A DNA stretch of 64,000 nucleotides from Terriglobus albidus. Its GTDB lineage: Bacteria; Acidobacteriota; Terriglobia; Terriglobales; Acidobacteriaceae. Made by a program: the position numbers and the translations under genes. The stretch is taken from assembly GCF_008000815.1 (NCBI RefSeq), contig NZ_CP042806.1:5828001-5892000 (forward strand). The letters are read 5' to 3'. Of this stretch, positions 3,800-47,392 are shown one piece after another. The notes beneath the pieces were generated by a model. The model worked only from the letters and a program-made list of their open reading frames with translations, searched no databases and was not told where the DNA came from. How positions within the stretch are numbered: the first letter of the stretch is position 1; each line of letters opens with the position of its first letter.

Positions 3800-3854
3800 A
3801 CCTCAGCGGCTAAAGCCGCGTGTCCTCTCTGCTTCGATGCGGCATGGCTAAAGC
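3800..3854. repeat. R1 repeat copy 2, left part (split by IS481-type element)
   Basis: CCTCAGCGGCTAAAGCCGCG and the beginning of the next palindrome (GGCATGGCTAAAGC) are visible, then the sequence is interrupted by the IS481-type insertion. The second half continues at 5131. The 8 bp GCTAAAGC at 3847-3854 and GCTGAAGC at 5131-5138 act as a 7/8 target duplication. Confidence 0.8.
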
Positions 3855-5130
3855 TGTCTAGTCTCCAGAGATGGTTTACAGTTTGTCTCCACACATCCTT
3901 TACAGATTGAGTGAGTTTGCGGGGCAGGGTTCCACGATCGTGGAACCCTGCCCCGTGAGGTCGAGTTCCCGGATGGGCGTGTCACCGTAGAAGATCAGGA
4001 TGCGTTGATCGATGCGAGCGAGACGGACAGGCTGATGAGCCAGGGCTCCGGCTACCTGCCAGCTGCGTCCGTCCAGCCAGAGCGCTCCGTTGCTGTTGAG
4101 CTCGCGCACTTCGGCATCCGGGGCATACGCGGGGTTACGTGGTTCGGTGTACTCTCGCTGGCTGGGGTGCCAGTGGTCTGCTGGCGTTTCCATGTCCAGC
4201 GCTTCATGGGGACGAACATGGTTGTACTCTTCCCGGAAGCGGTCCAGCCATGACTGGCCAGGCGGCGTATCCATCGGCCCGCACCTTCTCCGTGCCCGCT
4301 CCAGGGCACCGTGGAAGCGTTCCACCTTACCCTGGGTCTGCGGGTGGCGGACTCCGGAGAAGTACAGCCGGATGCCCAGCCGCATCAGCCACACGGATAG
4401 CTGCGTCCATCCTCCTGGTGACTGCGCGTTCCACCAGGGCTGGCCGTGATCCATCAGCATGGCCTCGGGCAACCCACAGTCAGAGAACGCCTTATCCAGC
4501 CTCTGTTGGACGACGAGACCTTCACCCGAGGACAGTTGCTCCAACACCAAGGCATAGCGGCTGTGGTCATCCAACACGGATAAGGGGCCAAGATGCGCGT
4601 TCCATCCCTTAGGGCTTTTGAAATCCATCTGCCAGAGCTGATTAGGCGCCTCGCGACAGAAGCTGCCAGTGGCCTGTGGATGGCTGTCCAGCCGGTGGAT
4701 CAGACCGTGCCGACGCAACACTCGATGTACGGTCGACGATGGCACCTTCACCCCAGATCGGCCGAGCAGAACGCGAAGCTTACGTGCACCCCAGTCAGGA
4801 TGCTGGCGCCGTAAAGACACGATCTGCTCTTCCAACTCGGCAGGGCTCTGACGGGGACTCAGCAGAGGCCTGCGGCTGGCTTCCTGCATGCCGGCCGCTC
4901 CATGCTCACGGTATCGCTTCAGCCACAGATAACCCGTCGGACGGCTAATCTCGTACTCCACACACAGAGACGAAAACGATCGCTCTCCAATCATCGCCGC
5001 CTCCACAAACCGCAATCGCTGCGCTTCCACTTCCACCTTCCTCCATGCCATCCAAAAACACCCCTAAACAGGCATAAACCTGTAAAGGATGTCTGGAGAC
5101 AAGGTGTAAAGGATGTCATGGAACTGAACA
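3855..5130 (-). mobile_element. IS481-family insertion sequence (apparently nested ends)
   Basis: The clear inner terminal inverted repeats are TGTCTCCACACATCCTTTAC (from 3884) and its complement ending at 5101, matching at 21 of 22 positions; they start with TGT as in IS481. Outside them is a second, more diverged pair (TGTCTAGTCTCC at 3855 and GGAACTGAACA ending 5130). This outer pair is the same as the ends of the 191-bp relic at 47145. Either a younger copy inserted into an older relic, or the element has duplicated ends. The 8-bp flanks (GCTAAAGC/GCTGAAGC) fall on an R1 palindrome centre. The transposase is intact, so the element may be active. Confidence 0.82.
3900..5051 (-). CDS. IS481-family transposase
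   Basis: A 383-residue DDE transposase. The N-terminal helix-turn-helix (about 1-60, FSSLCVEYEISRPTGYLWLK) should bind the element ends. An HTH_32-type linker segment follows, and then a retroviral-integrase-like catalytic core with DFKSPKGW (first Asp), LMDHGQPWW (second Asp) and QGKVERFHGALER (Glu). It cuts and joins the DNA ends of its own element. Its stop codon lies within the inner left terminal repeat (3884-3905). The frame is uninterrupted and the length is typical for IS481. Confidence 0.93.
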   Translation of the reverse strand: MAWRKVEVEAQRLRFVEAAMIGERSFSSLCVEYEISRPTGYLWLKRYREHGAAGMQEASRRPLLSPRQSPAELEEQIVSLRRQHPDWGARKLRVLLGRSGVKVPSSTVHRVLRRHGLIHRLDSHPQATGSFCREAPNQLWQMDFKSPKGWNAHLGPLSVLDDHSRYALVLEQLSSGEGLVVQQRLDKAFSDCGLPEAMLMDHGQPWWNAQSPGGWTQLSVWLMRLGIRLYFSGVRHPQTQGKVERFHGALERARRRCGPMDTPPGQSWLDRFREEYNHVRPHEALDMETPADHWHPSQREYTEPRNPAYAPDAEVRELNSNGALWLDGRSWQVAGALAHQPVRLARIDQRILIFYGDTPIRELDLTGQGSTIVEPCPANSLNL

Positions 5131-5440
5131 GCTGAAGCCGTGCCCTTAAGCAAAACGAAGCGCCTTCGGCGCTTGCCAGAACATCGCGACACTTAGCCTC
5201 ACGCGTCGATCTCTACGGCACAACCTGACCGAGATAAAGGATACCGCCGAAGAGTCAACCCGCCGTTGCGCGTAGCGCAACCAGTTCGCACCGCAAGGTG
5301 CGAATGCCTTGCTTAAGGGCATGGCTTTAGCCATGCCGCACAGAAACTGAACGGCACGCGGCTTTAGCCGCTGAGGTCGAAATCCCAGAGCCCTCTGATA
5401 CATCGCCCTCATCACCTTAAGCTCCGCTTAAGCAAAACCA
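5131..5440. repeat. R1 repeat copy 2, right part
   Basis: Continuation of the split R1 copy, filling the 5102-5554 gap. It contains GCGCCTTCGGCGC, GTTGCGCGTAGCGCAAC, TTCGCACC..GGTGCGAA, ATGGCTTTAGCCAT and GCGGCTTTAGCCGC, all palindromic modules seen in other copies. No gene is evident. The last 110 bp before 5555 presumably hold the promoter of the next gene. Confidence 0.85.
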
Positions 5441-5554
5441 TCCGTTTATCGTCTCATTGCACGCGGGTGCTATATTGCGCCACAGAATTGGTGTCCGAAG
5501 AGTTCGCTGCGGGCACACCCAATCAACCGTACAACTGAACGATCGGGGAATCAG

Positions 5555-8107
<2,553 letters not shown>

Positions 8108-8134
8108 CGTGTTGGCTAAGTACGCGTTGGATAG

Positions 8135-8165
8135 AGGATCGAGCTATGCTCGATCCTTCTTTTTG
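8135..8165 (+). terminator. Rho-independent terminator
   Basis: AGGATCGAGC and its exact complement GCTCGATCCT are separated by a 3-nt TAT loop and followed by TTCTTTTTG. It lies 28 bp after the stop of the phosphoesterase gene. Confidence 0.85.
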
Positions 8166-8213
8166 TTTGTCATTTCGTTGCGCTGCGAAGAAAATCTGCT
8201 TCTCATACATCGC

Positions 8214-8485
8214 CCTCAGCGGCTAAAGCCGCGTTCCTTGCGGGGCTTTGTGCAGCACGGCTGAAGCCGTGCCCTTAAGCAAGGCATTCGCGCTATGCGC
8301 GAAACAAAAGACAGGCTAAAGACATAGTCCCGTATCTGGAACGCTATTTCCCCTCTTGCCTGACTATCCCATCCCACGAAGTCGATGACGAATACTGGCG
8401 GTAGAGCCGCTAGATCGCTCAGTTGCGCGTCGCGCAACCAGTTCGCACCGAAGGTGCGAATGTTGTGCTTAAGGGGACGGCTTCA
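8214..8485. repeat. R1 repeat copy 3 (interrupted by MITE-A)
   Basis: CTCAGCGGCTAAAGCCGCG, ACGGCTGAAGCCGT, the CCTTAAGCAAGG link, TTCGCGCTATGCGCGAA, GTTGCGCGTCGCGCAAC and TTCGCACC..GGTGCGAA modules are present, with about 100 bp of unrelated sequence in the middle (8310-8415). The last palindrome, GGACGGCTTCA, is broken by MITE-A. This fills most of the 8108-8710 gap. Confidence 0.83.
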
Positions 8486-8633
8486 CAGGCTGCGGAAAAA
8501 CTCGATTTTCGAGAAGCGCAAAAAAACGATCGCGTCAGAATGACCTATAAGCGATCCGGGGACATTGGGTGATGATTTTCTATCCCCAAATTTGACCCGA
8601 TTATCCCCTCATATAGAGTTTTTCCGCAGCCTG
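8486..8633. mobile_element. MITE-A copy 1 (non-autonomous, IS5-type ends)
   Basis: A 148-bp element without coding capacity, bounded by CAGGCTGCGGAAAAACTC and its exact inverse. The ends closely resemble those of the IS5-type copies at 23740 and 25048 (CAGTTTGCGGAAAAACTC), which suggests mobilisation by a related transposase. A second, nearly identical copy is at 26769. The flanking 4-mers here are TTCA and TGAA, inverted instead of direct, so recombination between repeat copies may have exchanged one flank. Confidence 0.85.
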
Positions 8634-8710
8634 TGAAGCCCATGGCTCCCACCGGTCTTACCCCTTCTCTGGCTCTACCTGAAACCTGAAACGGAGTGAG
8701 TTCGAACGCG

Positions 8711-8938
8711 CTAACTGGCTTTCCGCCAGATCATCTCGCCTTCCTGCTCGAACTCGTCGTAGGCCTTTCGCAGACCGAGAAGGATTTCAGCGGTTGTTTT
8801 CAATAGCGCGCGAGCCCTGGGATCGTTGACCTTGCCGACGTCATGCCAGGCATAGTCGGCAACACCAGACAACATTGCTTTCAGCTTCGCAGTGTGGCGG
8901 CGCGGATCATCTTCGCCGTAGGTGACGCGGTGGCTCAT
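8711..8938 (-). CDS. Small conserved-looking protein divergent from a PadR regulator
   Basis: A 75-residue soluble protein (starts MSHRVTYGEDDPRRH, ends EMIWRKAS), rich in charged residues and predicted mostly helical. I do not recognise a named family. The ATG at 8936-8938 is preceded at good spacing by ACGGAGG on the minus strand, which decides this start over longer upstream frames that would run into the PadR promoter. Head-to-head arrangement with the PadR gene, 101 bp apart, suggests co-regulation, but the function is unknown. Confidence 0.65.
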   Translation of the reverse strand: MSHRVTYGEDDPRRHTAKLKAMLSGVADYAWHDVGKVNDPRARALLKTTAEILLGLRKAYDEFEQEGEMIWRKAS

Positions 8939-9039
8939 GAAAACCTCCGTGAAGTTATCAGATGATGGACTCGCCCCAAAACGATGCCCGGTGTGTGCGA
9001 TTTCATACGCATTGCCTAAGCTTGCGCTACGCTGGGTGA

Positions 9040-9348
9040 GTGCCGAAGACATATCGCGATATCTACTCAGGTCTGGTCCGGCTGCATGTGCTTCATCATG
9101 CAAGCCGTGAACCGATCTATGGTCTGGAGATGATGCGCGAGCTTCGTCATCACGGCTACGGTCTCGGCCCAGGTACGCTCTATCCTCTGCTGCACGGCAT
9201 GGAAGCGAGTGGGCTTCTGCGATCGAAGATGACGAATGGTTCCGGCCGGCTGCGGCGTGTCTACACTGCTACTGCTGCAGGTAGAAGGGCTTTGCAAGAG
9301 GGACACGAGAAGGTCCGGGAGTTACTGCGGGAGATGGATGAGGATTAG
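9040..9348 (+). CDS. PadR-family transcriptional regulator
   Basis: A 102-residue winged-helix repressor. The segment YGLEMMRELRHHGYGLGPGT followed by LYPLLHGMEASGLL is the PadR recognition helix and wing region, and the C-terminal RRALQEGHEKVRELLREM forms the dimerisation helix. PadR proteins bind palindromic operators and respond to small ligands or stress. The start is a GTG at 9040; no strong ribosome-binding site precedes it, so the message could be leaderless or the start slightly misplaced. The gene is divergent from the 75-residue protein. The efflux operon begins 480 bp downstream and is a candidate target, but that is inference. Confidence 0.88.
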   Translation: MPKTYRDIYSGLVRLHVLHHASREPIYGLEMMRELRHHGYGLGPGTLYPLLHGMEASGLLRSKMTNGSGRLRRVYTATAAGRRALQEGHEKVRELLREMDED

Positions 9349-9473
9349 GAGCTCAGTTGCGGAGCCTTTGTCAGAAGCAGATTTCTCCGCTTGCGCTACG
9401 AAATGACAAACAAAGTGCAATTGAGCTTTCGTATCCAGCGAACGCGTTCGCTGGTAATTCGAGCAAAGCTCGA

Positions 9474-9793: not shown

Positions 9794-9830
9794 TAGCGTC
9801 TTCATAGGAAAAGACAAGGACGTCTTATCG

Positions 9831-14390: not shown

Positions 14391-15465
14391 ACACGCCGCC
14401 GTCCTTCTGCCGTTCGTCAGCATCTCTCTTGCCGTGGCGCAGAGCGCGCCGAAGACCGCATTGGTGAAGGTGGAAAGCCGTAGCCTCTCCCGCACCGTGC
14501 CGCTGACAGCGGAGCTGACACCCTATCTGCAGACCGACATCGAAGCCCGCGTTCCCGGCTATGTGGAGAAGGTTCTCGTCGATCGCGGAAGCAAGGTACG
14601 TCGCGGCCAGTTGCTCGTCGTTCTCTCTGCTCCGGAGATGGGCTCGCAGACTTCGGCCTCCGAGGGCGGCCTGCATCAGGCCGAAGCTGAAGCGGCGCAG
14701 GCTAAAGCATCCGCAGCAGCGGCAGCCAGTACCTATGAACGCCTGCTGGAGGCAGCGAAGACTCCCGGCGCTGTTGCCGGCAATGAACTGATCCAGGCAC
14801 AGAAGCAGAAAGAGGCCGCCGAGGCCATCGTGCAGGCCCGCGAAGCTTCGGTGAAGTCGGCAGGGAGCCAGCTGACCTCCACGAAGGAGATGGAGGGATA
14901 TCTTCGTGTGACCGCTCCCTTCGACGGCATCGTCACCGAGAGACTTGTCCACCCCGGCATGATGGTCGCAGCAGGGAGTCATCAGGCGCTGTTGCGACTG
15001 CAGCAGGTCTCCCACCTTCGCCTGGTAGTGCCTGTGCCTGAGAACTACTCCGGCAACATCGCCCAGGGTAAACAGGTCATCTTTCACGTGCCGGCGCATC
15101 CAGGCAAGAACTATACCGGCAAGGTCGCGCGCATTCCCAACTCGCTCGACCCGCAGAGCCGCGCCATGATGGTGGAGCTTGATGTCGCCAATGCCGACGC
15201 ATCGCTCTCGCCCGGCATGTATCCCACGGTGGATTGGCCGGTGGCTTCCAGTGACAACCTGTTGTTCGTTCCTGCGACCAGCGTCGTGACCACGACGCAG
15301 CGGACATTTGTCATCGCGGCACGCGGCGGACATGCCCACTGGGTAGATGTTCGCAAAGGCCCTGCCTCAGGCGATCAGGTCTCCATCCGGGGGGAGCTGA
15401 AACCGGGGGATGTCGTCGTAAAGCAAGCTACGGACGAGATCCGGGAAGGCGCACCGTTGCCTTAG
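14377..15465 (+). CDS. RND efflux periplasmic adaptor (membrane fusion protein)
   Basis: A 362-residue adaptor joining the RND pump to the TolC-like duct. A signal peptide (MNTFRHAAVLLPFVSISLAV) precedes a lipoyl-like half (IEARVPGYVEKVLVDRGSKV), an alpha-hairpin around 95-165, the second lipoyl half (YLRVTAPFDGIVTERLVHPG) and a beta-barrel domain. The ATG at 14377 lies inside the permease gene (14-bp overlap) and gives a clean signal peptide, so longer upstream starts were discarded. The stop codon TAG at 15463 is supplied by the first bases of a MITE-B copy, and the protein ends ELKP..REGAPLP; a few native C-terminal residues may have been lost. Confidence 0.9.
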   Translation: MNTFRHAAVLLPFVSISLAVAQSAPKTALVKVESRSLSRTVPLTAELTPYLQTDIEARVPGYVEKVLVDRGSKVRRGQLLVVLSAPEMGSQTSASEGGLHQAEAEAAQAKASAAAAASTYERLLEAAKTPGAVAGNELIQAQKQKEAAEAIVQAREASVKSAGSQLTSTKEMEGYLRVTAPFDGIVTERLVHPGMMVAAGSHQALLRLQQVSHLRLVVPVPENYSGNIAQGKQVIFHVPAHPGKNYTGKVARIPNSLDPQSRAMMVELDVANADASLSPGMYPTVDWPVASSDNLLFVPATSVVTTTQRTFVIAARGGHAHWVDVRKGPASGDQVSIRGELKPGDVVVKQATDEIREGAPLP

Positions 15466-23172: not shown

Positions 23173-23739
23173 CGAAGGCGCCATATGACGATCAGGTCTT
23201 TCATGGAGAGTTGAAGATGGCGACGCAGTGGTGAAGCCGACAACCGATGAGGATTCACGAAGGCGCACCGTTGCGGTAAGGATATAAAAGCGCTGAAGGC
23301 GTTGCACAAGGCGCGGCCGGTTCGCGCCGCAGGCGCGAATGCCTTGCTTAAGGGGACGGCTTCAGCCGTCCCGTACTGAGTCCCGAAGATATGCGGCTTT
23401 AGCCGCTGAGGTACCAAGCTATGACCTCAGCGGCTAAAGCCGCGTTTCCTTCCGACCTGCTACGGCACGGCTAAAAGCCGTGCCCTTAAGCAAAACAGGA
23501 GCGGACTTCAATGCCATGCGCATCGTTTTGATGGGTATGCAACGGTTCACGAACCGTTTCGTTTAGAGATCGTTGCATTGCGGTGATTGAAGATGGCGAC
23601 GCAGTGGTGAAGCCGACAACCGATGAGATTCACGAAGGCGGACCGTTGCAGTAACGATATAAAAGCGCTGAAGGCGTTGCACAAGGCGCGGCCGGTTCGC
23701 GCCGCAGGCGCGAAAGCCTTGCTTAAGGGGACGGCTTTA

Positions 23740-25006
23740 CAGTTTGCGGAAAAACTCTTTTCGTTTTTCGGGGATTGTCGTAAGAGAGAGGTATGCGGGG
23801 AGAAGAAGCGAAGCAGAGCGGGATGTTCAGTTACGTAACGATGGAGCAGCGGATCGCATCGGATCATCCGGTGCGGAGGATCCGGACTATGGTGGATGCG
23901 GCACTGAAGCGGATGGATGGTGAGTTGTCGCAGCTTTACGCGGCGACAGGGCGACCATCGATCGCGCCGGAACGTCTGCTGCGTGCGCAGTTGCTGATGG
24001 TGCTGTACTCGATTCGCTCGGAACGGCAGTTGATGGAGCAGCTGAACTATAACCTGTTGTTCCGCTGGTTCGTGGGCATGGAGATTGACGATCCGGTGTG
24101 GGACGTGACGGTATTTACCAAGAACCGGGAGCGTCTGATCGCCGGCGAAGCCAGCCAGAAGCTTCTGCTGGCGGTGCTGGAGGAAGCTAGCCAGCACAAG
24201 CTGCTCAGCGAAGAACACTTCACGGTGGACGGCACGCTGATCCAGGCATGGGCCAACCGGCGCAGCTTCCATGAGAAGGCCGATCCTCCGGACCGTGGGA
24301 CGGGAGCGGGTGGTAAGAAGCTACTGCGTGATACTCATGAGTCCTCTACCGATCCGGAAGCGCGGCTGTATCGCAAGAGCTCCAGCGGAGCATCGGTTCC
24401 CAGCTATCTGGGCCATGTGATCACCGAGAACCGCAACGGTCTGGTGGTGGCGGCCATGGCCACACAGGCCGGGACGACAGAGGAACGTGCAGCGGCTCTG
24501 AAGATGTTGAAGCGGATCAAGCGTAAAAAGCGGATCACGCTGGGAGCCGACAAGGGCTATCAGTACGAGAAGTTCATCAAGGCCCTGCGCCGTCGCAAGG
24601 TCAGGCCGCACGTGGCCGAGTATGAGCCGAACCCCAAATGGCCCAACTGGCTCAACAGCAAGGAACGCAGCGAGCCGGGATATGCGATCAGTCAGAGGAA
24701 ACGCAAACTGGTTGAGAAGGTCTTCGGTTGGATGAAGCTGGACCGTTCGATGCGACAGACCAAGCTGCGTGGGCTACGCAAGGTGGACTGGATGGTACAG
24801 CTCATGGCCGCAGCCCATAATCTCCTGCGGCTGGTGAAGCTGATACCTCCCATCCCAGCACAGTCATGACACGGCCGTAGTGTGTCTAAACACCCTCTAA
24901 ACCCACCCAAACCGCATAACAACGTGCCATAGAGAACCAAAACAACTCACCGATCCCTCACAACAGACTGACCCGCAGGCGAAAAGACGCGTTTTTCCGC
25001 AAACTG
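23740..25006 (+). mobile_element. IS5-type insertion sequence, copy 1
   Basis: A 1,267-bp element bounded by CAGTTTGCGGAAAAAC and its mirror GTTTTTCCGCAAACTG, flanked by TTTA on both sides (23736-23739 and 25007-25010). It lies inside the GGCTTTAGCC palindrome of the second tandem unit. It differs from copy 2 at a single base that I could find (C at 24824 against G at 26132), so transposition or duplication was recent. Confidence 0.93.
23793..24869 (+). CDS. IS5-family transposase, copy 1
   Basis: A 358-residue DDE transposase with a DUF772-type N-terminal domain (LRAQLLMVLYSIRSERQLME, about 68-90) and a DDE core with FTVDGTLIQAWA (Asp near 147), LGADKGYQ (Asp near 251) and a C-terminal Glu region LVEKVFGWMK (near 307). 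It cuts and joins the ends of its own element. The frame is intact. The ATG at 23793 lies 53 bp inside the left end and follows a weak GAGAGAGGT. Confidence 0.93.
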   Translation: MRGEEAKQSGMFSYVTMEQRIASDHPVRRIRTMVDAALKRMDGELSQLYAATGRPSIAPERLLRAQLLMVLYSIRSERQLMEQLNYNLLFRWFVGMEIDDPVWDVTVFTKNRERLIAGEASQKLLLAVLEEASQHKLLSEEHFTVDGTLIQAWANRRSFHEKADPPDRGTGAGGKKLLRDTHESSTDPEARLYRKSSSGASVPSYLGHVITENRNGLVVAAMATQAGTTEERAAALKMLKRIKRKKRITLGADKGYQYEKFIKALRRRKVRPHVAEYEPNPKWPNWLNSKERSEPGYAISQRKRKLVEKVFGWMKLDRSMRQTKLRGLRKVDWMVQLMAAAHNLLRLVKLIPPIPAQS

Positions 25007-25047: not shown

Positions 25048-26314
25048 CAGTTTGCGGAAAAACTCTTTTCGTTTTTCGGGGATTGTCGTAAGAGAGAGGT
25101 ATGCGGGGAGAAGAAGCGAAGCAGAGCGGGATGTTCAGTTACGTAACGATGGAGCAGCGGATCGCATCGGATCATCCGGTGCGGAGGATCCGGACTATGG
25201 TGGATGCGGCACTGAAGCGGATGGATGGTGAGTTGTCGCAGCTTTACGCGGCGACAGGGCGACCATCGATCGCGCCGGAACGTCTGCTGCGTGCGCAGTT
25301 GCTGATGGTGCTGTACTCGATTCGCTCGGAACGGCAGTTGATGGAGCAGCTGAACTATAACCTGTTGTTCCGCTGGTTCGTGGGCATGGAGATTGACGAT
25401 CCGGTGTGGGACGTGACGGTATTTACCAAGAACCGGGAGCGTCTGATCGCCGGCGAAGCCAGCCAGAAGCTTCTGCTGGCGGTGCTGGAGGAAGCTAGCC
25501 AGCACAAGCTGCTCAGCGAAGAACACTTCACGGTGGACGGCACGCTGATCCAGGCATGGGCCAACCGGCGCAGCTTCCATGAGAAGGCCGATCCTCCGGA
25601 CCGTGGGACGGGAGCGGGTGGTAAGAAGCTACTGCGTGATACTCATGAGTCCTCTACCGATCCGGAAGCGCGGCTGTATCGCAAGAGCTCCAGCGGAGCA
25701 TCGGTTCCCAGCTATCTGGGCCATGTGATCACCGAGAACCGCAACGGTCTGGTGGTGGCGGCCATGGCCACACAGGCCGGGACGACAGAGGAACGTGCAG
25801 CGGCTCTGAAGATGTTGAAGCGGATCAAGCGTAAAAAGCGGATCACGCTGGGAGCCGACAAGGGCTATCAGTACGAGAAGTTCATCAAGGCCCTGCGCCG
25901 TCGCAAGGTCAGGCCGCACGTGGCCGAGTATGAGCCGAACCCCAAATGGCCCAACTGGCTCAACAGCAAGGAACGCAGCGAGCCGGGATATGCGATCAGT
26001 CAGAGGAAACGCAAACTGGTTGAGAAGGTCTTCGGTTGGATGAAGCTGGACCGTTCGATGCGACAGACCAAGCTGCGTGGGCTACGCAAGGTGGACTGGA
26101 TGGTACAGCTCATGGCCGCAGCCCATAATCTGCTGCGGCTGGTGAAGCTGATACCTCCCATCCCAGCACAGTCATGACACGGCCGTAGTGTGTCTAAACA
26201 CCCTCTAAACCCACCCAAACCGCATAACAACGTGCCATAGAGAACCAAAACAACTCACCGATCCCTCACAACAGACTGACCCGCAGGCGAAAAGACGCGT
26301 TTTTCCGCAAACTG
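25048..26314 (+). mobile_element. IS5-type insertion sequence, copy 2
   Basis: A second 1,267-bp element in the same orientation, 41 bp after copy 1, flanked by TTTA (25044-25047 and 26315-26318). The 41-bp interval is native R1 sequence between the two neighbouring palindromes, so both arms of one repeat were hit separately instead of the element being a simple tandem duplication. Confidence 0.93.
25101..26177 (+). CDS. IS5-family transposase, copy 2
   Basis: Protein sequence identical to the copy starting at 23793; the one base difference (CTC to CTG at 26132) is silent in a Leu codon. Same DDE residues and same spacing to the ends. Being intact in both copies, the pair could mobilise each other or, in principle, the composite segment 23740-26314. 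Confidence 0.93.
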   Translation: MRGEEAKQSGMFSYVTMEQRIASDHPVRRIRTMVDAALKRMDGELSQLYAATGRPSIAPERLLRAQLLMVLYSIRSERQLMEQLNYNLLFRWFVGMEIDDPVWDVTVFTKNRERLIAGEASQKLLLAVLEEASQHKLLSEEHFTVDGTLIQAWANRRSFHEKADPPDRGTGAGGKKLLRDTHESSTDPEARLYRKSSSGASVPSYLGHVITENRNGLVVAAMATQAGTTEERAAALKMLKRIKRKKRITLGADKGYQYEKFIKALRRRKVRPHVAEYEPNPKWPNWLNSKERSEPGYAISQRKRKLVEKVFGWMKLDRSMRQTKLRGLRKVDWMVQLMAAAHNLLRLVKLIPPIPAQS

Positions 26315-26768
26315 TTTAGCCGCTGAGGTACCAAGCTATGACCTCAGCGGCTAAAGCCGCGTTTCCTTCCGACCTGCTACGGCACGGCTAAAAAGCCGTG
26401 CCCTTAAGCAAAACAGGAACGGCCTTCAATGCCATGCGCATCGTTTTGATGGGTATGCAACGGTTCACGAACCGTTTCGTTTAGAGATCGTTGCATTGCG
26501 GTGATTGAAGGTGGCGACGCAGTGGTGAAGCCGACAACCGATGAGATTCACGAAGGCGGACCGTTGCAGTAAGGATATAAAAGCGCTGAAGGCGTTGCAC
26601 AAGGCGCAGCCGGTTCGCGCCGCAGGCGCGAATGCCTTGCTTAAGGGGACGGCTTCAGCCGTCCCGTACTGAGTCCCGAAGATATGCGGCTTTAGCCGCT
26701 GAGGTACCAAGCTATGACCTCAGCGGCTAAAGCCGCGTTTCCTTCCGACCTGCTACGGCACGGCTAAA

Positions 26769-26917
26769 CAGGCTGCGGAAAAACTCGATTTTCGAGAAGC
26801 GCAAAAAAAACGATCGCGTCAGAATGACCTATAAGCGATCCGGGGACATTGGGTGATGATTTTCTATCCCCAAATTTGACCCGATTATCCCCTCATATAG
26901 AGTTTTTCCGCAGCCTG
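26769..26917. mobile_element. MITE-A copy 2
   Basis: A 149-bp relative of the element at 8486, differing visibly by one extra A in an A-run. It is flanked by direct TAAA repeats (26765-26768 and 26918-26921) and sits at the centre of the palindrome ACGGCTAAAGCCGT of tandem unit 3. No coding capacity. Confidence 0.9.
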
Positions 26918-28425: not shown

Positions 28426-28546
28426 ACCGAACGCCCTCCCTACTTGTTCAGTTTGGCTTGGGCTCGGTTACAACTTGAAAGACTTCGTAGGACATTCTTC
28501 CGTTCTTGACCCACTATGGGAAAGTTAGAGTTTCTTAATCTTCCGA

Positions 28547-28662
28547 TAGAGCATTTCTCCTGTAGGTGTAGAGCAGGGCTTGTGCATCTATGGGCGTTTT
28601 CCTCAATGAAAACGCCTCGGCACACTCCTCACGGGACACCCAGCAACAGGAGAAATGCTCTA
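28547..28662. mobile_element. MITE-B copy 2
   Basis: TAGAGCATTTCTCCTGT and ACAGGAGAAATGCTCTA form the terminal inverted repeats, with the GGGCGTTTTC..GAAAACGCC core. It ends 10 bp before the ATG of the MerC gene and fills half of the 28426-28672 gap. The preceding 120 bp is presumably the original promoter area. Confidence 0.87.
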
Positions 28663-28672
28663 GCATGAAACG

Positions 28673-29154: not shown

Positions 29155-29431
29155 AGCGCTGAAGGCGCGCTCCATACCAGCCTGGGGCAACGCCCCAGGT
29201 TTAGGTGGCAAGAGTGGTTAAAGGGCTGAAGGCCCGCTCTATAGTCGCGCCTTCAATCCCATACGTATCGTTCATCGAATGTAGTTCGCACTTCGCGTGA
29301 AGGCGGGAAATAACAACGATCGAGATTGTGACATTGCGGGAATATAGGTCGGGCCTTCAGCCCTCTTACCGTTTGCTATCCGTAAACCTGGGGCGTTGCC
29401 CCAGGCTGGTATAGGGCGCGCCTTCAGCGCT
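29155..29431. mobile_element. Deletion derivative of the RAYT element
   Basis: Inverted copies of the palindromic repeat (GCGCTGAAGGCGCGC.., CCTGGGGCAACGCCCCAGG, GGGCTGAAGGCCC) lie at 29155-29245 and 29351-29431. Between them is about 100 bp that begins with CCCATACGTATCGTTCATC, also present at the end of the transposase gene at 30799, and finishes with GAGATTGTGACATTG, matching its beginning at 31229. It is therefore an internally deleted, non-coding version of the element at 30698-31341. This fills the 29102-29485 gap. Confidence 0.83.
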
Positions 29432-30697: not shown

Positions 30698-31341
30698 AGC
30701 GCTGAAGGCGCGCCCTATACCAGCCTGGGGCAACGCCCCAGGTTTATGGATAGCAAACGGTAAGAGGGCTGAAGGCCCGACCTATAATCACGCATTTAAT
30801 CCCATACGTATCGTTCATCAAACGCGATTCCATATCTTGTGAGAAAGGCGCGGAATTCATCCTGGAACGATATCTTGCGGTGATGCTCCGCCTGGGAATC
30901 GATATACGTCAACAATGCATCGCGGTCATCTGGCCCAACGGAGAAAACGGCGTATCCGCGTTGCCATGCAAATTTCTTAATTGACTGCTCCTTGAGCCAT
31001 TTGGATGAAGATGTCTTCAATAACTCAATCAACTCAGATACGCTTGTTGTCCTGGACAGACGAATGGCCAGATGAACATGATCCGCGACGCCACCGATCC
31101 GATAACACTCACATCCGGCATTGCGGACGGCAGCAGCCATATAGGCATACAACGGTTCACGAACATTTTCATTCAGGAATGGGTATCGTTCTTTCGTGCT
31201 GAACACCACATGAACCAACAGCAGCGATAGAGATTGTGGCATTGCCGGATTATAGAGCGGGCCTTCAGCCCTTTAACATCTTGTGGGCACTGAAACCTGG
31301 GGCGTTGCCCCAGGCTGGTATCGGGCGCGCCTTCAGCGCTT
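30698..31341. mobile_element. RAYT (REP-associated transposase) locus between inverted palindromic repeats
   Basis: The palindromic repeat GCGCTGAAGGCGCGC..CCTGGGGC..GCCCCAGG..GGGCTGAAGGCCC occurs at 30698-30785 and, inverted, at 31256-31341, bracketing the IS200-like transposase gene. This arrangement is the REP/RAYT pattern known from other bacteria: the transposase is thought to spread such palindromes rather than to be mobile itself. The neighbouring deleted copy at 29155 has the same brackets. Confidence 0.85.
30796..31242 (-). CDS. IS200/IS605-like Y1 transposase (RAYT)
   Basis: A 148-residue single-strand DNA transposase of the Y1 HUH family. The metal-binding HUH motif is HVH (55-57, in VADHVHLAIRL) and the catalytic tyrosine is Tyr113 in LTYIDSQAEHHRK. 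The C terminus FLTRYGIAFDERYVWD is typical for REP-associated members. Such enzymes nick at hairpin-forming REP sequences through a 5'-phosphotyrosine intermediate. The frame is intact. It is flanked by inverted palindromes that are the likely substrates. Confidence 0.9.
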   Translation of the reverse strand: MPQSLSLLLVHVVFSTKERYPFLNENVREPLYAYMAAAVRNAGCECYRIGGVADHVHLAIRLSRTTSVSELIELLKTSSSKWLKEQSIKKFAWQRGYAVFSVGPDDRDALLTYIDSQAEHHRKISFQDEFRAFLTRYGIAFDERYVWD

Positions 31342-31856: not shown

Positions 31857-31972
31857 AAGAGCATTATTCCTGTTGCTGGGTATCCCGGAAGAGGAGTGCA
31901 GCGGCGTTTTCATTGCGGAAAACGCCCATAGATGCGGAAGCTCTACACGACACCTGCAGGAAAAATGCTCGA
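31857..31972. mobile_element. MITE-B copy 3 (inverted orientation)
   Basis: AGAGCATTATTCCTGTTGC at the left and GCAGGAAAAATGCTC at the right, with the core GGCGTTTTC..GAAAACGCC, oriented opposite to copies 2, 4 and 5. It ends 24 bp before the ATG of the YciI-like gene, just before its ribosome-binding site. The 31621-31856 stretch between it and the GDCCVxC gene shows nothing recognisable. Confidence 0.82.
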
Positions 31973-40591: not shown

Positions 40592-40684
40592 GGGCGTATC
40601 GATAAGTTCGTTCTGTTCAAGCGCTGCCCCTAGGAGCCCCCGATCGGCCTGCCCTTCGTCCAACCGGAAAAAGTGTCAATCCGA

Positions 40685-40800
40685 TAGAGCATTTTTCCTG
40701 TAGGTGTCGTGCAGAGCTTGTGCATCTATGGGCGTTTTCCGCGATGAAAACGCCGCTGCAAGCTCCTCCCGGGATACCCAGCAACAGGAAAAATACTCTA
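40685..40800. mobile_element. MITE-B copy 4
   Basis: TAGAGCATTTTTCCTGT and ACAGGAAAAATACTCTA are the terminal repeats, core GGGCGTTTTC..GAAAACGCC. It ends 11 bp before the TTG proposed as the start of the ABC permease. A frame beginning inside the element at 40704 reads straight into the permease gene. Confidence 0.88.
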
Positions 40801-40811
40801 GAATTTCAATA

Positions 40812-41909: not shown

Positions 41910-42585
41910 AATGCCCTTCATTCAGGTTCGCAAGCTGACCAAGACATACCGGGTAGGCGATGTGGATGTGCATGCCCTACGCGGGATGGATCTCGACGTT
42001 GCCAAAGGCGAGTTCATCGCGGTCGTTGGGTCGTCTGGATCAGGCAAGTCCACTCTCTTCAATATCCTGGGAGGGCTAACTCCTCCTTCGACCGGAAGCA
42101 TCCATATTGGAGGCAAGGATTTGTCTCACATGACGAATGCCGAACGGACGAACATGCGTAAGAACACGGTGGGTTTTGTATTTCAGAAGTACAACTTGCT
42201 GCCAACTCTTTCAGCAGAAGACAACATCAAGATTGTGAAATACATCGGCGGAAATGGGACAGATCTTGATTCCCCCTTCCAGGACGTTCTTCATCTACTT
42301 GGAATCGCGGAGAGGCTCAAACACAAGCCCCGGGCGCTGTCGGGTGGGCAGCAGCAGCGAGTTGCGATTGCCCGCGCCATCGTGAACCGACCCGCCATTT
42401 TGCTCGCAGATGAGCCGACGGGAAACCTCGACAGCCAGAACTCGATAGCAGTGCTCAAGCTACTCAAGGACCTGAACGAGCGTCTCGGTCAGACTATCTT
42501 GATGATCACGCATGATGAAGAGGCAGCCTCATATGCGCACCGCAGGGTTCACATGAAGGACGGGCAATTGGTCCGGACTGCCTAG
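41902..42585 (+). CDS. ABC transporter ATP-binding protein (LolD/MacB-type)
   Basis: A 227-residue ATPase with Walker [11 protein letters not shown] (42-51), the signature [16 protein letters not shown] (near 146), Walker [11 protein letters not shown] (near 165) and the switch histidine ILMITHDEE. It energises the permease encoded just upstream (8-bp overlap). The short length with no extra domain is typical of the LolD/MacB type. The substrate is unknown; no adaptor protein is encoded nearby. Confidence 0.93.
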
Positions 42586-42674
42586 AGCCCAGCAACCCAC
42601 ATTTCCAGTTCACCGGGAGATTATTTTCTGTAACTCCTGGGACGCCATAGCGTCCTACTGCCGGGAGAACAGCG

Positions 42675-43163
42675 ATGAGCCAGGCCCTGCCGTTGTGGCA
42701 TCGTGCACAAGAGACGTTGAAACCGTACGCCACCATTCCCCTGCGGCTGATCGTGGGATATGGTTTTCTTGCCCATGGAATCGCCAAATGGAGCAAGGGA
42801 CCGGAGACATTCGCGGCCATTCTCACGATGGCGCATGTCCCTGCGCCTCACCTGATGGCCTGGCTCACCATATTCATCGAAGTCTTCGGTGGAATCGCGG
42901 TACTGTGCGGCGCTTTCGTGAACCTGGTGGCTCTTCCGGCGATTGGCCTGTTAGTCGTCGCGATTCTGACCGTTCATCTGCCGTATGGCTTCACCTCCAT
43001 CAAACTGATAAAGATCGTCGATGGCCGCGCTCAGTTCGGCCCTCCGGGGTACGAGTGCAATCTGATCTATATCGCTTGTATCGTGGCTCTTGTGATGGCT
43101 GGTTCCGGTCCGTGGTCGATCGATGCCTGGCGCCTTCGCAGGAGGGCGGACCAGTCCGTCTAG
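42675..43163 (+). CDS. DoxX-family membrane protein
   Basis: A 162-residue inner-membrane protein with four transmembrane helices and the family hallmarks LRLIVGYGFLAHGIAKWSKG at the N-terminal helix. DoxX proteins are small membrane proteins linked to redox or sulfur processes in other organisms, but many are of unknown role. GGGAGAACAGCG is upstream of the ATG. It is 89 bp after the ABC ATPase gene on the same strand and could share its transcript. The 43164-43274 gap downstream contains GTCATCCTGAGCGAAG, a fragment that I recognise as another common dispersed sequence. Confidence 0.82.
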   Translation: MSQALPLWHRAQETLKPYATIPLRLIVGYGFLAHGIAKWSKGPETFAAILTMAHVPAPHLMAWLTIFIEVFGGIAVLCGAFVNLVALPAIGLLVVAILTVHLPYGFTSIKLIKIVDGRAQFGPPGYECNLIYIACIVALVMAGSGPWSIDAWRLRRRADQSV

Positions 43164-43274
43164 TATGGTGCCTCAGAAGTTCTTGTCATAAGTGTTGTCA
43201 TCCTGAGCGAAGTGAAGGACCTGCTTTTTCAACGCTTCGGACGGTGCTCTTCATGATGTGATACGAGTGCTCGG

Positions 43275-43352
43275 GATACTGAAGCCGAGCCCATGTCCCC
43301 GAGGGACACCACCCCAACGAACAAGTTCGTTGGGGACCCCGGACATTGATGG
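43275..43352. repeat. Repeat family E, copy 2 (split by IS110-type element; continues 44723-44762)
   Basis: CCCCGAGGGACACCACCCCA followed by ACGAACAAGTTCGT and TGGGGACCCC is the palindromic core of family E. After the insertion, ATGGGCTATCTCAAATATG and TCGATGCG at 44739-44765 correspond, reversed, to the flank seen at 60811-60837 (TATCGACAAATTCGGGATAG). The IS110-type element therefore entered this repeat. Confidence 0.7.
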
Positions 43353-43436
43353 GATAAGGAAGAAGGCTTCAGCGAAGATCGAGATAGGTAAGGGTTAGAG
43401 GACTGACCTATCGGGAAGATCAGGAGAAGCCTTCTT

Positions 43437-44489
43437 ATGCAGATTGTAGGTTGTGATTTCCATCCGCAGTGGCAGCAGGTTTCATTTTTAGATCAGGAGA
43501 CTGGCGAGTACCGGGAAGCGAAGCTGGTCAACGGGGACGGGGAGGCGGAGCGGTTCTACCGGTCGTTGTCTCCAGGAGCGCTTGTAGGGATCGAGTCGTG
43601 CGGCAACGCGCAGTGGTTTATTGATCTGCTAGGCAGTCTGGGTCACACGGTGTGGGTCGGAGATGCGGCGAAGATCCGAGCCAGCTATGTACGGAAGCAG
43701 AAGACGGACCGCCGGGATGCGGACCATATCCTGAAGCTGCTGGTGGAGGACCGGTTTCCGCGGTTGTGGACGCCTTCAGCCAAGCAGCGGGATCTTCGTC
43801 AGCTGCTGATCCACCGACACAAGCTGGTGGAGATCCGGACCCGGGTGAAGAACGGGCTGCAGCACCTGGCGATGAACCGTGGCGTACAGAAGCAGTCGCG
43901 GCTGTGGAGCGTTCGGGGGAGGGCTGAGTTGGAAAAGCTTCCTCTGGAGGGCTGGAGTGCCCGGCGACGGGAGGATCTGCTGGAGCTGATGAAGGGTCTG
44001 GATCAGCAGATCAAGGAGCTGGATGAGGCAGTCGTGCAGGCGGCCAGGGAGGATGCGAAGGCGGAGCTGTTGATGAGCCAGCCGGGAGTCGGTCCGATCA
44101 CGGCGATGGCCTTCGTACTGACGATCGGCGATGTGAGCCGGTTCGAGTACAGCGGGAAGGTCGCCAGCTATCTGGGCCTGATCCCCAGCGAATACACCTC
44201 GGGCGGCAAGCGCAAACTGGGAGCCATCAGCAAGCAGGGCAACCGGTTCATGCGCCAGTTGCTGGTCGAAGCAGCTCAGACGGCCTGCCGGCTGGATGAA
44301 GGATTTCGAAAGCAGTATCAGGCTCGCTGCCACCACAAGCCGAAAGCAGTGGCCAAGGTGGCGGCAGCAAGGAGGTTAGCAGTGCGGCTCTACTGGATGC
44401 TCAGGCTGAACAAACGCTATCCAGAGATCGCCCATATCGAGAGCAGCTCGGGGGTGCCCCTGGCCATCCATGGTCGTGACGTTGAGTGA
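43437..44489 (+). CDS. IS110-family transposase (DEDD, IS1111-like)
   Basis: A 350-residue recombinase with the RuvC-like DEDD domain at the N terminus (VGCDFHPQWQQV, IESCGNAQWF, KQKTDRRDADHILKLL) and the transposase_20 domain with the catalytic Ser region near 210-300 (LLMSQPGVGPITAMAFVLTI and the following SYLGLIPSEYTSGGKR). These enzymes insert and excise by an RNA-guided recombination using a bridge RNA from the element. Intact frame, usual length. The start at 43437 has AGGAGAAGCCTTCTT upstream. Confidence 0.93.
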   Translation: MQIVGCDFHPQWQQVSFLDQETGEYREAKLVNGDGEAERFYRSLSPGALVGIESCGNAQWFIDLLGSLGHTVWVGDAAKIRASYVRKQKTDRRDADHILKLLVEDRFPRLWTPSAKQRDLRQLLIHRHKLVEIRTRVKNGLQHLAMNRGVQKQSRLWSVRGRAELEKLPLEGWSARRREDLLELMKGLDQQIKELDEAVVQAAREDAKAELLMSQPGVGPITAMAFVLTIGDVSRFEYSGKVASYLGLIPSEYTSGGKRKLGAISKQGNRFMRQLLVEAAQTACRLDEGFRKQYQARCHHKPKAVAKVAAARRLAVRLYWMLRLNKRYPEIAHIESSSGVPLAIHGRDVE

Positions 44490-44709
44490 GCGCTTTCGCA
44501 TCCAGCACAGGCTGGATGTCCGCATAGAAGCATCATGGCCTGTTGTATATGGTCGAATCGATGGTTGGTGGGGCTAGGCCCCACAGAGATGTGATGCAGC
44601 GTTGAGTTACCCCAGAAGACACCGGTCCTCTAACCCCTTGCCTCTGGACTCTCAAACGGTGCTCCCGCATCGAATAATGACGTACGCTCTTTTTACCCCT
44701 TGACACAGT
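44490..44709 (+). ncRNA. Candidate bridge RNA region of the IS110/IS1111-type element
   Basis: The 233-bp non-coding tail between the transposase stop and the right end contains hairpins: CATCCAGC/GCTGGATG at 44499-44518 and GTGGGGC/GCCCCAC with a 3-nt loop at 44568-44584. In IS1111-group elements the bridge RNA is encoded downstream of the transposase, so this is the expected place. The precise transcript ends and the guide loops are not determined. Confidence 0.45.
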
Positions 44710-44767
44710 CTTCTTCCTTATCGAGGGGCACCCTGTACATGGGCTATCTCAAATATGTCGATGCGCT

Positions 44768-46798
44768 CTAACTGCTCTCTTTCAAACGCGGAAAGGACGT
44801 AATGCGGAGCTTGGCTGCCGCATACGGAACCAGTGCAATCGTCTCTTCCTTCTCCGCACTCTCGACCGGGCTCTCCGGCACAACTGCGGCTGTCCCTTCA
44901 TTCGCCATCCACGAAGGCAACAGCTTTGCCTTAACCTGCAATTGCGTTGGAGTTCCTTCGGCTGCGAATGGCCGGTCTCCCAATGCACGTTCCGTGACCG
45001 TAATCTTCTGCGATGAGCCTGCAGGATCGACCGCAAGCGCATAGTTCCAGCGCGAGCTGGGATAGACCTGCCAGTCCGCAGTCATTCCACGGTCGCGCAG
45101 CTTCAGCCAGTCCTGCCCGATGTTGTAGGAGAAGACCAGCGGGCCGCGCTCTACCGAGACCGAGTTGTTGAAGCCCGTGATCACGCGAGGCTGCATGGGG
45201 AAGCTGATGGTGATGACGTCTCCCTGCTTCCATTCTCGATCCACACGCGCGAAGGTGCCGGCGCTCGGTGCGTTTTCCTTGCGGCCATTCACCGCGATCT
45301 CCGCACCATCTGCCCAGCCGGGAATCCGCAACAGGAATGGAAACTTCACTGGCTTCGATGGATTGACGGCCATGCGGATACTGCCGCGAAAGGGGTACTC
45401 CGTCTCCTGGGCGATGTGGACGTTAGTTCCCTGCAGCTTGAGCTGCGCTTCGCACGGACTGTACGCAGCAGCCACAACTGCGCCTTGCGCTGAGGTCATG
45501 AATAGATTGGCTGCGAACTTCGGCCATCCCTGGCTGAAGTTCGCGGTGCAGCAACCGAAGTGAGGTTCTAATCCATATAAATTCGATTCCGGACCATTGG
45601 TCGACCATGGCTCCTTGTGCAGGCTGCATTCGACCTGGTTGGGCTGCTGATCATACTGATGTGCCCACATGTCGTCCGTCATGGTTCCGGGTAATGCATT
45701 GAAGGCCAGCTTCTCGAGCCGGTCTGCAAGCGAGGCATCGCCCAAGACAGCCAGCGACTGTTCCAGCGAGTACATGTACTCCACCACGGTGCAGAGCTCC
45801 GATCCCTGCGATGGGCTCCGACCTGCGAGATGTTCGTCGCAGGAAAACATACCGTTAGGCAGGCCATGGTAGCGATCGAGTTCCGCGATCATCTTCAATA
45901 CAGCCTGCCGGTCAGAGTCCGCACCGGAGACGCGCGACCAGATGGCTCCTGTCTTCACGGCCTGCCCGTTGTTCACGCCGTGCGTCGCGAGCTTGATGTC
46001 TTTGAAGCCCGGCATCTTCTCCATCTGATCGAGATGGGCAGACGACATCTTCTCTTTGTATTGAAAGTTCTCGTACTGCGCCATCCAGTCGTATCCCTGT
46101 GCGCGCAGAAGCTTTGCAAGATCGAGCAACGCCGGATCAGGCGCGCGATCGTAGAGCCACAGCACGGTCAGGACCTGGTCCTGCCAGCGAAATCTTCCCC
46201 ATGATGTGAGCGGCCGATTCGGCAGCGCTGCGAGCTGGTACTTGAAGTAACGCTGCATCATGGGAACGACGCGTGGATCGGCAGTAGCCTCCTGATACTG
46301 AGCAAGCGCCTTCAGCATGACCATGCGTGGCCACCAGTCGTTATTCGAGGCCGGTCCGAACATGCCATCCGCAGTCTGACTCTTGAGTGTCCAATCCACG
46401 AACCGCTGCGCCTTCGCCTTGAGGCGTTCATCACCGAGCAGATACGCCAGCGGGATTAGGCCATCCAGAAAATACGGTCCGCGCTCCCATGATTCTCCGG
46501 TGCCGCCGAGCCAGCCGCTCTTGGGGCCAACGTCAGGCCAGGTCTCATCCAGATGCCCGCTAAGCCCGTTCGCCTGAATCTCCAGTTGGCGTCTGAGCCA
46601 TCCCTTCGGCTGAACGCTTCCCAGCGGAAGCAACTGGAATTCGCCGGTGCGTACGGACTTCGCTGGATCGCCTAGCCAGTCAAATGACGAATCAAAAACT
46701 GGTGATGCCGACGCGAGTCCCGCATACTTCATGAACTGACGGCGGCTTAGGTTTGGACGGAAACGAGAGAACAAATCTGCCTCCACAACACAGCGCAA
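44768..46798 (-). CDS. GH127-type glycoside hydrolase (beta-L-arabinofuranosidase family, DUF1680)
   Basis: A 676-residue exported enzyme. The N terminus has a twin-arginine-like signal (SRRQFMKYAGLASAS). The catalytic part is an (alpha/alpha)6 barrel with the GH127 landmarks CTVVEYMYSLEQSLAVLG, holding the likely catalytic Glu, and FGCCTANFSQGWPKF, with the cysteine pair that binds Zn in characterised family members. A C-terminal beta-sandwich follows. GH127 enzymes release beta-L-arabinofuranose from plant glycoproteins or polysaccharides. It is isolated here, with the IS110-type element right after its 3' end and repeats before its start. Confidence 0.9.
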   Translation of the reverse strand: MRCVVEADLFSRFRPNLSRRQFMKYAGLASASPVFDSSFDWLGDPAKSVRTGEFQLLPLGSVQPKGWLRRQLEIQANGLSGHLDETWPDVGPKSGWLGGTGESWERGPYFLDGLIPLAYLLGDERLKAKAQRFVDWTLKSQTADGMFGPASNNDWWPRMVMLKALAQYQEATADPRVVPMMQRYFKYQLAALPNRPLTSWGRFRWQDQVLTVLWLYDRAPDPALLDLAKLLRAQGYDWMAQYENFQYKEKMSSAHLDQMEKMPGFKDIKLATHGVNNGQAVKTGAIWSRVSGADSDRQAVLKMIAELDRYHGLPNGMFSCDEHLAGRSPSQGSELCTVVEYMYSLEQSLAVLGDASLADRLEKLAFNALPGTMTDDMWAHQYDQQPNQVECSLHKEPWSTNGPESNLYGLEPHFGCCTANFSQGWPKFAANLFMTSAQGAVVAAAYSPCEAQLKLQGTNVHIAQETEYPFRGSIRMAVNPSKPVKFPFLLRIPGWADGAEIAVNGRKENAPSAGTFARVDREWKQGDVITISFPMQPRVITGFNNSVSVERGPLVFSYNIGQDWLKLRDRGMTADWQVYPSSRWNYALAVDPAGSSQKITVTERALGDRPFAAEGTPTQLQVKAKLLPSWMANEGTAAVVPESPVESAEKEETIALVPYAAAKLRITSFPRLKESS

Positions 46799-46900
46799 GA
46801 ATGCTGCCGCAACAGTCTAGTCGCAGCGCCGTGGAGCGAGCCACTGCGCGTTGGACGATGTCGACAAACTCTAAGCCATACTTCGGAAGTGGATTTGCCC

Positions 46901-47392
46901 TCAGCGGCTAAAGCCGCCGTATTTTGTGGCTTGTTATCGCACGGCTGAAGCCGTGCGCTTAACCACCCCAGCCAGCAGAGCTGGCCGGGGACCCCGGAGC
47001 AAGGCATTCGCACCTTGGGTGCGAAATGGTTGCGCGAGGGCGCAACGATCCGGGCGGACAAAAATATAGAAGAGACACCAAGCAAACAAGCTGTCTTCCG
47101 TTCGCGCATCGCGCGAATGTTTTGCTTAAGGGCACGGCTTCAGCTGTTAAGTCTCCAGACATCCTTTACAGTCGATTTGCTCGCAATTCCCTATAAAGAG
47201 CGGTCGTAGTGGCTAGGGAAAGTGGGAAAAGGCCTTTCTTTTTCCAAGGTTGCGCAGCAACCGCCTTTTCCTGGCCTCTGTTGACCTCACAGGACTTCCG
47301 GCACAAAAGTGTAAAGGATGTCATGGAACTGAACAGCTTCAGCCGTGCCGTAAAAGATGCGGCAAGTAAGCGGCTTCAGCCGCTGAGGGCGA
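46901..47392. repeat. R1 repeat copy 7 (interrupted by IS481-type relic)
   Basis: CTCAGCGGCTAAAGCCGC, ACGGCTGAAGCCGT, CCAGCCAGCAGAGCTGG, TTCGCACC..GGTGCGAA, GTTGCGC..GCGCAAC and ACGGCTTC|AGCCGT, the last broken by the relic at 47145-47335. The remaining modules continue to 47392 (CGGCTTCAGCCG). Together with the relic this occupies nearly all of the 46799-47441 gap; the first 100 bp include the upstream region of the GH127 gene. Confidence 0.85.
47145..47335. mobile_element. IS481-type relic or MITE (191 bp)
   Basis: Ends TGTTAAGTCTCCAGACATCC at the left and GGATGTCATGGAACTGAACA at the right are those seen as the outer pair of the element at 3855-5130. There is no transposase. It is flanked by an exact 8-bp repeat GCTTCAGC (47137-47144 and 47336-47343) in the centre of the R1 palindrome ACGGCTTCAGCCGT. 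It could be mobilised by the transposase at 3900 or is a deletion product. Confidence 0.82.

Follow-up and report, generated by a model that had tools for sequence, protein, structure and literature searches.

Insertions at R1 Palindromes in the Window

The window, a 64,000-nucleotide stretch of the Terriglobus albidus genome (contig NZ_CP042806.1, positions 5,828,001 to 5,892,000), carries a palindromic repeat, R1, and six mobile insertions, all of which split the center of an R1 palindrome, as the original prediction had claimed. The R1 center is GGCTNNAGCC, and the repeat is laid out as paired palindromes, a proximal one (TTAAGGG[CG]A[CT]GGCT-NN-AGCC...) and a distal one (GCGGCT-NN-AGCCGCTGAGG). 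A left GGCT and a right AGCC half-site bracket each of the six insertions.

An IS481-type insertion sequence (IS) of 1276 bp occupies 3855-5130 on the minus strand. Its transposase (3900-5051, minus strand) scores 231.2 bits against NF033577 (cut-off 224), and its flanks are the R1 center, GCTAAAGC on the left and GCTGAAGC on the right, with one base unlike. Two IS5-type copies, both on the plus strand, lie in one and the same R1 unit. Copy 1 (23740-25006, 1267 bp; transposase 23793-24869, 256.3 bits against NF033581, cut-off 140) sits with a TTTA/TTTA duplication at the center of the proximal palindrome, which has GGACGGCT arms, and copy 2 (25048-26314; transposase 25101-26177), with the same TTTA/TTTA duplication, at the center of the adjoining distal palindrome with its GCGGCT arms. 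This unit has an uninterrupted paralogue at 26594-26720 (plus strand), an empty site within the window.

The remaining three insertions, all on the plus strand, are short. MITE-A, a miniature inverted-repeat transposable element (MITE), is present twice. At 26769-26917 (149 bp), it is flanked by TAAA/TAAA at an R1 center, of which an uninterrupted paralogue lies at 23421-23500 (plus strand, center GGCTAAAAGCC). At 8486-8633 (148 bp), the R1 center is split into TTCA on the left and TGAA on the right, which is not a direct duplication; here, the right arm presumably comes from another R1-type unit, leaving recombinant flanks. The last insertion, at 47145-47335 (190 bp, or 191 with its first base), has IS481-type ends and lies between GCTTCAGC/GCTTCAGC at an R1 center. 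Although it had been taken for a relic, a short non-autonomous element, MITE-B, is the better interpretation: over the 190-bp query, four copies show 100% identity, and MITE-B therefore probably moved recently. The six insertions are real, yet not fully independent as had been supposed, since MITE-A and the IS5-type element share the end motif CAGnnTGCGGAAAAAC.

Intact centers of the form GGCT(TT/TC/AA/GA)AGCC number 43 in the window, for example GGCTTTAGCC at 621-630. Centers of 3 nt such as GGCTAAAAGCC are found in four places, and an R1 palindrome at 54272-54300 has the center GGCTATTAATAAAGCC, possibly the leftover of an excised element.

Genome-Wide Occupancy of R1 Centers

Copies of the elements were located by BLAST in the whole genome, a single contig of 6,405,582 bp (6.41 Mb), and the flanks of every complete copy were inspected. 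Only complete copies were counted, leaving aside end fragments of the IS (L025, L026, L059, and shorter pieces); L026 retains half an R1-like site, and L025 has none. When the five families are pooled, an R1-type center is occupied by 48/49 copies. Both half-sites flank all 10 IS5-type, all 13 MITE-A and all 14 IS481-type copies, whereas MITE-B is at an R1 center in four of five copies, with both half-sites at 4/4 of the identical ones. The fifth family, an IS110/IS1111-type element absent from the window, has both half-sites at 7/7 copies. The original prediction had proposed such a genome-wide count and had claimed at least two unrelated transposase families at the same palindrome center. 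Most copies do indeed lie at R1 and not elsewhere; the IS5-type and IS481-type transposases are two such families, and the IS110/IS1111-type adds a third.

The genome contains 717 eligible GGCTNNAGCC sites, against 246 for the reversed control. With all 717 sites eligible and the copies assumed to be independent, log10 P for 48/48 by chance is about -190; restricted to DNA outside a crude open reading frame (ORF) model, under the same assumption, it is about -151. We conclude, at a probability of roughly nine in ten, that three unrelated transposases target the dyad axis of the R1 palindromes, which are repetitive extragenic palindromic (REP) sequences.

Further IS families were sought in 862 kb (13% of the genome), made up of 40 stretches and the window, by a scan for R1 half-sites with an interruption, which were judged by eye, and for any repeat at least 250 bp long. 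This yielded one new R1-inserted family, the 1.4-kb IS110-type element mentioned above. The density of R1 centers is about fourfold higher in the zone 5.59-5.97 Mb, which includes the window, than in evenly spaced stretches (442 vs. 115 per Mb), and this zone holds 7/10 IS5-type, 9/14 IS481-type and 0/7 IS110-type copies.

Selection could produce a similar picture without any targeting, if elements inserted widely and survived only in harmless R1 sequences. R1 centers are in fact mostly outside the ORF model (21/228 inside, the model covering 84.6% of the 862 kb). However, survivors would then be expected across all intergenic DNA, and GGCTNNAGCC centers make up less than 0.1% of the positions outside the ORF model; yet 48/49 copies are on the exact axis, with a duplication size fixed per family and with arm preferences that differ by family. 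This explanation is very improbable. The proposal that R1 acts as a safe landing site fits the avoidance of likely coding DNA by R1 centers, but the evidence speaks for target choice by each transposase and not for an evolution of R1 toward that role.

Target-Site Duplications and Choice of Arms

The IS5-type element makes a 4-bp TNNA duplication, exact in 8/10 copies; exact duplications are also present in 8/13 MITE-A copies, 8/14 IS481-type copies and 4/4 copies of the 190-bp element. In the IS481-type element, with ends TGTCTAG...TGAACA (TG...CA), the duplication is 8 bp long, GCTNNAGC. Rejoining the flanks of its copies gives the GGCT-NN-AGCC palindrome directly in 12/14 cases; L012 and L017, the flanks of which are unlike, fail.

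The presence of half-sites at 48/49 copies would also be expected if these were part of the elements, as long terminal repeats, and had never been a target. Such an origin is hardly credible: the arm types and outer flanks vary between copies of one element, matched duplications stand between element and arm in 28/41 copies, and the window also contains R1 paralogues that no element has interrupted.

The arms were compared with a background of 228 intact R1 centers from the 862-kb sample, with p-values that are approximate because the sample is weighted. In 17/18 IS481-type and MITE-B copies, both arms are of the CA[CT]GGCT type (background 19.7%, p = 1.5e-11). GGAC arms on both sides are found at 6/10 IS5-type copies (background 8.3%, p = 5e-5), the other four having mixed (one), GC (two) or CA[CT] (one) arms, and the IS110-type element is in the distal GC-armed palindrome in 7/7 cases (background 35%, p = 6.5e-4). 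MITE-A copies are spread across several arm types. The use of different R1 arms by different families indicates that each transposase chooses its own site.

R1 as a REP Family

R1 is best read as a mostly extragenic REP family, given its high copy number, its mostly extragenic location and its position beside genes of the REP-associated tyrosine transposase (RAYT) type. The sequence GGCTTYAGCC occurs 624 times in the genome (both strands) vs. 54 times for the reversed control, the highest number among 100 genomes searched, this one included. The genome has seven Y1_Tnp genes, and in 3/7, R1 is present on both sides in inverted order (L246, L247, and L248, at G000:C1 5756815, 5760142, and 5797430). 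The protein at 5756815, the only one of the three tested, scores above the cut-off of NF047646, the model for REP-associated tyrosine transposases (109.4 vs. 80 bits). An IS5 copy is inserted in the downstream R1 unit of each of these three genes; at L246 it occupies the distal palindrome, at L247 and L248 the proximal one. R1 was probably spread by RAYTs. In REP/RAYT systems, the palindrome generally also adjoins a conserved GTAG-type tetranucleotide.

The window itself has a Y1 gene (30892-31227, minus strand), which fits IS200/IS605 better (68.5 bits, cut-off 55). It is flanked by matches to the Rfam family Acido-Lenti-1 (RF01687) at 30698-30742 (minus) and 31296-31340 (plus); further matches lie at 29155-29199 and 29387-29431. 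The Acido-Lenti-1 "sRNA" family may represent end palindromes of an IS200-like element. Another repeat, of ~115 nt, is found at 28542-28666, 31858-31970, 40680-40804, 50633-50757, and 58047-58159, with a partial sixth copy near 15463. It carries a GGCGTTTTC..GAAAACGCC palindrome and has no Rfam match at the gathering score.

IS110-Type Elements and a Predicted Guide RNA

The R1-inserted IS110/IS1111-type element (NF033542, 216.4 bits, cut-off 140; seven copies genome-wide) has subterminal inverted repeats, TGAGACGGCTG/CAGCCGTCTCA, and ~250 nt 3' of the transposase gene. This 3' non-coding region contains a 10-nt sequence, CTCAGCGGCT, that is reverse-complementary to the right-hand half of the distal palindrome when the latter is read along the transposase strand. 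Located 16 nt beyond it, GCTTCAGAT (9 nt, read by eye) is identical to the last bases of the left flank joined to the start of the element. The left flank has TTCA rather than TTTA in 6/7 copies, which fits the predicted guide match. Entry into the distal palindrome is probably RNA-guided, the predicted guide being derived from the 3' non-coding region.

A second IS110-type element (NF033542, 222.8 bits) is present at 43341-44747 of the window and at L169:14596-16002; the two copies found in the 862-kb sample are 97.9% alike. Its flanks contain short inverted pieces, AGCCCATG/CATGGGCT or AACCCAT/ATGGGTT. A palindromic repeat serving this element was not supported, as the three patterns searched gave 2, 0 and 0 matches.

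A Probable Change of Target among IS5-Type Relatives

Relatives of the IS5-type transposase, for which loci were taken from the best matches of each search (55 loci used), come mostly from Acidobacteriaceae and other Acidobacteriota. Eight loci with a match of less than 280 aa (L084, L086-L090, L127, and L128) were kept out of the tree; of these eight, both palindrome half-sites are present at L127 and a single one at L089 and at L090, and L087 and L128 have a CTAG-like end. The tree comprises 48 rows, including the protein of T. albidus, with seven rows unassigned and a root that is not fixed. Labels were given from one end only for L076 and for L081, L121-L123, L212, L219, and L223.

Two types of target are recognizable, the center of a GGYTNNARCC-type palindrome and CTAG-like tetranucleotides (CTAG, TTAG, CTAA, and similar). 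A single branch (support 94/86) parts 12 palindrome rows from 29 CTAG rows, so that only one change is needed. Myxococcota, Gemmatimonadota, and other Acidobacteriota are represented among the CTAG rows; all palindrome rows belong to genomes of the same family as T. albidus or to named Acidobacteriaceae. Five copies from genomes G158 and G201 were verified at both ends, and the G158 element, of which four copies were located (L222 and L237-L239), is always within GGCTNNA...TNNAGCCC. The simplest reading is one switch from CTAG to the REP axis in the IS5 clade.

IS481-Type Relatives at Hairpin Centers

At E 1e-60, the IS481-type transposase has a match in 23/398 genomes of the bacterial family, its own included. 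The relatives comprised 26 loci (L182-L205, L102, and L103), of which 17, from 14 genomes, had both ends and flanks; the nine dropped were L103, L183, L188, L190, L191, L195, L198, L201, and L204, and the ends of L185, L196, and L202 were placed by hand. The rejoined flanks were scored for a hairpin with a loop of 2-12 nt and a center at most 4 nt from that of the duplication, against a null of 9300 random positions in the same loci that did not imitate the removal of the duplication. This score replaced an earlier stem score, which halted at the junction and undercounted pairing inside the duplication.

All 14 T. albidus copies are in the upper 5% of the null and 12/14 in the upper 1%; for the relatives, the numbers are 15/17 and 14/17. 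The hairpin arms vary among these relatives (GGCACAGCT, GGCACGGTT, TCGGAAGGGCAGGGTT, CCCAGGTCTG, CCCATTCAAGCC, CCCGCCTTTGC, and others). In the five relatives with at least 63% identity, the loop is 2 nt long; the 8-bp duplication is exact in L182, L185, and L186, agrees at 6/8 bases in L202 and is not clear in L184. Twelve relatives at 50-55% identity have larger loops of 4-12 nt and duplications of 7-11 bp in eight cases and none in four. The two sub-groups are separated in a tree of the IS481-type proteins (98/95). These observations point to recognition of symmetric arms or of an extruded structure by the IS481 relatives.

In genome G119, three identical copies have like arms on either side and duplications of 11, 11 and 10 bp; a fourth, related element is in a like hairpin. 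The G119 arms, TTCAAGCC..GGCTTGAA, had no recurrence in 200 kb of that genome, and CAGGGTT-NN-AACCCTG of G158 had none in 200 kb; a looser GCCCA-type hairpin was found once in 200 kb of G119 and not in that of G158. A general use of high-copy REPs by the IS481 relatives is therefore not supported, as the hairpins of G119 need not be such repeats.

The DDE elements might read the secondary structure of the DNA, either a hairpin on one strand or a cruciform that has been extruded, instead of the arm sequence. IS481 relatives at stem-loop centers with differing arms and loops would be explained in this way, as would the varying duplication lengths and non-recurring arms in G119, the further hairpin site L240, and a T. 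albidus MITE-B copy, L058, in a stem-loop other than R1. Nevertheless, the T. albidus IS481-type and MITE-B copies keep to CA[CT] arms although palindromes are equally formed by GGAC and by GC arms, so that the sequence of the arms matters too; an arm sequence is common to the G119 copies; and the IS5 relatives outside the palindrome group are on CTAG-like sites without matching arms. A reading of structure only is, on balance, rather unlikely. Beyond R1, we consider it possible, though less likely than not, that an IS481 clade of this bacterial family recognizes stem-loops by their two-fold symmetry or extruded structure, cuts at the arms with a duplication length that follows the loop, and has had members retargeted between REPs and other hairpins, the change from CTAG to the REP axis being a parallel switch in the IS5 clade.

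Proposed Mechanism and Contrary Evidence

For targeting of the R1 axis, the exact positions, the arm preferences and the target types of the relatives are observed, and the following mechanism can be proposed. The IS5-type DDE transposase takes the dyad axis as its target, with a 4-bp TNNA duplication and a preference for GGAC arms, and the IS481-type transposase (rve domain) uses the same axis, with the 8-bp GCTNNAGC duplication and CA[CT]GGCT arms. In both DDE enzymes, recognition of the symmetric half-sites would place the cuts symmetrically about the axis. The IS110/IS1111-type DEDD enzyme enters the distal palindrome, probably with a guide RNA matching both halves. MITE-A is probably carried by the IS5-type and MITE-B by the IS481-type transposase. 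A likely consequence is that copies multiply without gene breakage.

Several observations weigh against this account, or against parts of it. The sole exception among the 49 copies, L058 (G000:C1:2290905-2291086), is a MITE-B copy of 92% identity located in a GCCCCACCC-type stem-loop, a kind used by several more distant IS481 relatives in other genomes. One IS family in the 862-kb scan, the second IS110-type element, lies outside R1; hence, R1 is not the target of all IS in this genome. The scanned sample itself gives extra weight to the R1-rich zone and to the surroundings of known copies, in four stretches. L244 is a second gene that scores above the cut-off of the RAYT model, and its 1.5-kb flanks are free of R1. 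Among the relatives, L075 of the IS5 palindrome group is only weakly palindromic, two of the 17 IS481 relatives (L193 and L200) have no significant hairpin, and six have no clean duplication (L184, L193, L196, L197, L199, and, weakly, L202).

Furthermore, in the four families with duplications, the left and right duplications are unlike in 13/41 copies. In L012, L017, L020, L049, and L050, the arms disagree too, or one and the same R1 half forms the outer flank on either side. The unlike duplications presumably arose by recombination between copies, as has been proposed for the hybrids of ISRm22 (PMC1525189). Undoing a single inversion between L012 and L020 does not by itself restore matching duplications, so the history must be more complex. 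Insertion into a hairpin, which would invert the centers, was also considered for the unlike duplications and rejected: 4/13 are inverted (hand count), about what random reassortment of four center types gives.

Comparison with Known Systems

Targeting of REPs by IS, including the palindrome axis and two families in one genome, is already known (PMC1525189), also for IS481 (PMC11708052). The REP-targeting IS described comprise ISPsy8, ISPa11, ISPpu9, ISPpu10, ISRm22, and ISRm19 (Tobes and Pareja 2006, PMC1525189). As in the T. albidus families other than MITE-B, 100% of the copies of the systems described there are in REPs at one position, and ISRm22 and ISPsy8 are at the axis of palindromy. 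S. meliloti likewise has two unrelated elements, ISRm22 (IS4) and ISRm19 (IS110), in the REPs of one genome, and ISPpu9 and ISPpu10 are found at the same REP position, with hybrid duplications read as recombination (PMC1525189). The families in that study are IS3, IS110, IS4, IS256, and IS5, and "IS481" is absent from its main text. Here, in contrast, IS5-, IS481- and IS110/IS1111-type elements and two MITEs, 48 copies altogether, share one REP axis in one genome. IS1397 and ISKpn1 (IS3 family), cited in the same study, also show transposase-determined insertion in the palindromic units of enterobacteria, but they differ in IS family and in REP sequence.

In P. fluorescens SBW25, as here, copies of an IS481-family element are at the same REP position, and one new insertion was observed (PMC11708052). 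Four old copies and the new one, in one strain, are described there; here, there are 14 copies and a MITE, the 8-bp duplication has its center on the axis, and the relatives, from 14 genomes, mostly occupy the centers of hairpins. Among the literature matches listed, judged by titles and abstract openings, PMC11708052 was the only one on IS481 in REPs, and among those listed for acidobacteria and repetitive extragenic palindromic sequences, no title concerned IS targets.

ISPa11 has a REP target like the IS110-type element described here (PMC11187229). This element also resembles the IS1111/IS110 seekRNA systems in its downstream non-coding region, subterminal inverted repeats and matches to both target strands, and the order of the matches, the complement of the top strand followed by the bottom-strand match, is that of IS1111 seekRNAs (PMC11187229), the guide here being a prediction.

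Related transposases with different targets (CTAG, the REP axis, and various hairpins) provide natural sets for mapping target choice and could model integration at harmless sites. What is added to the known systems, and was not met among the literature matches listed, is the near-saturation, the fact that three chemistries and two MITEs converge on one axis, the partitioning of the arms and the clade-level switch of target. Of the three unrelated chemistries, which all act on the same few base pairs, two are probably directed by protein and one is probably guided by RNA; REP sequences thereby appear as a shared niche for mobile elements.

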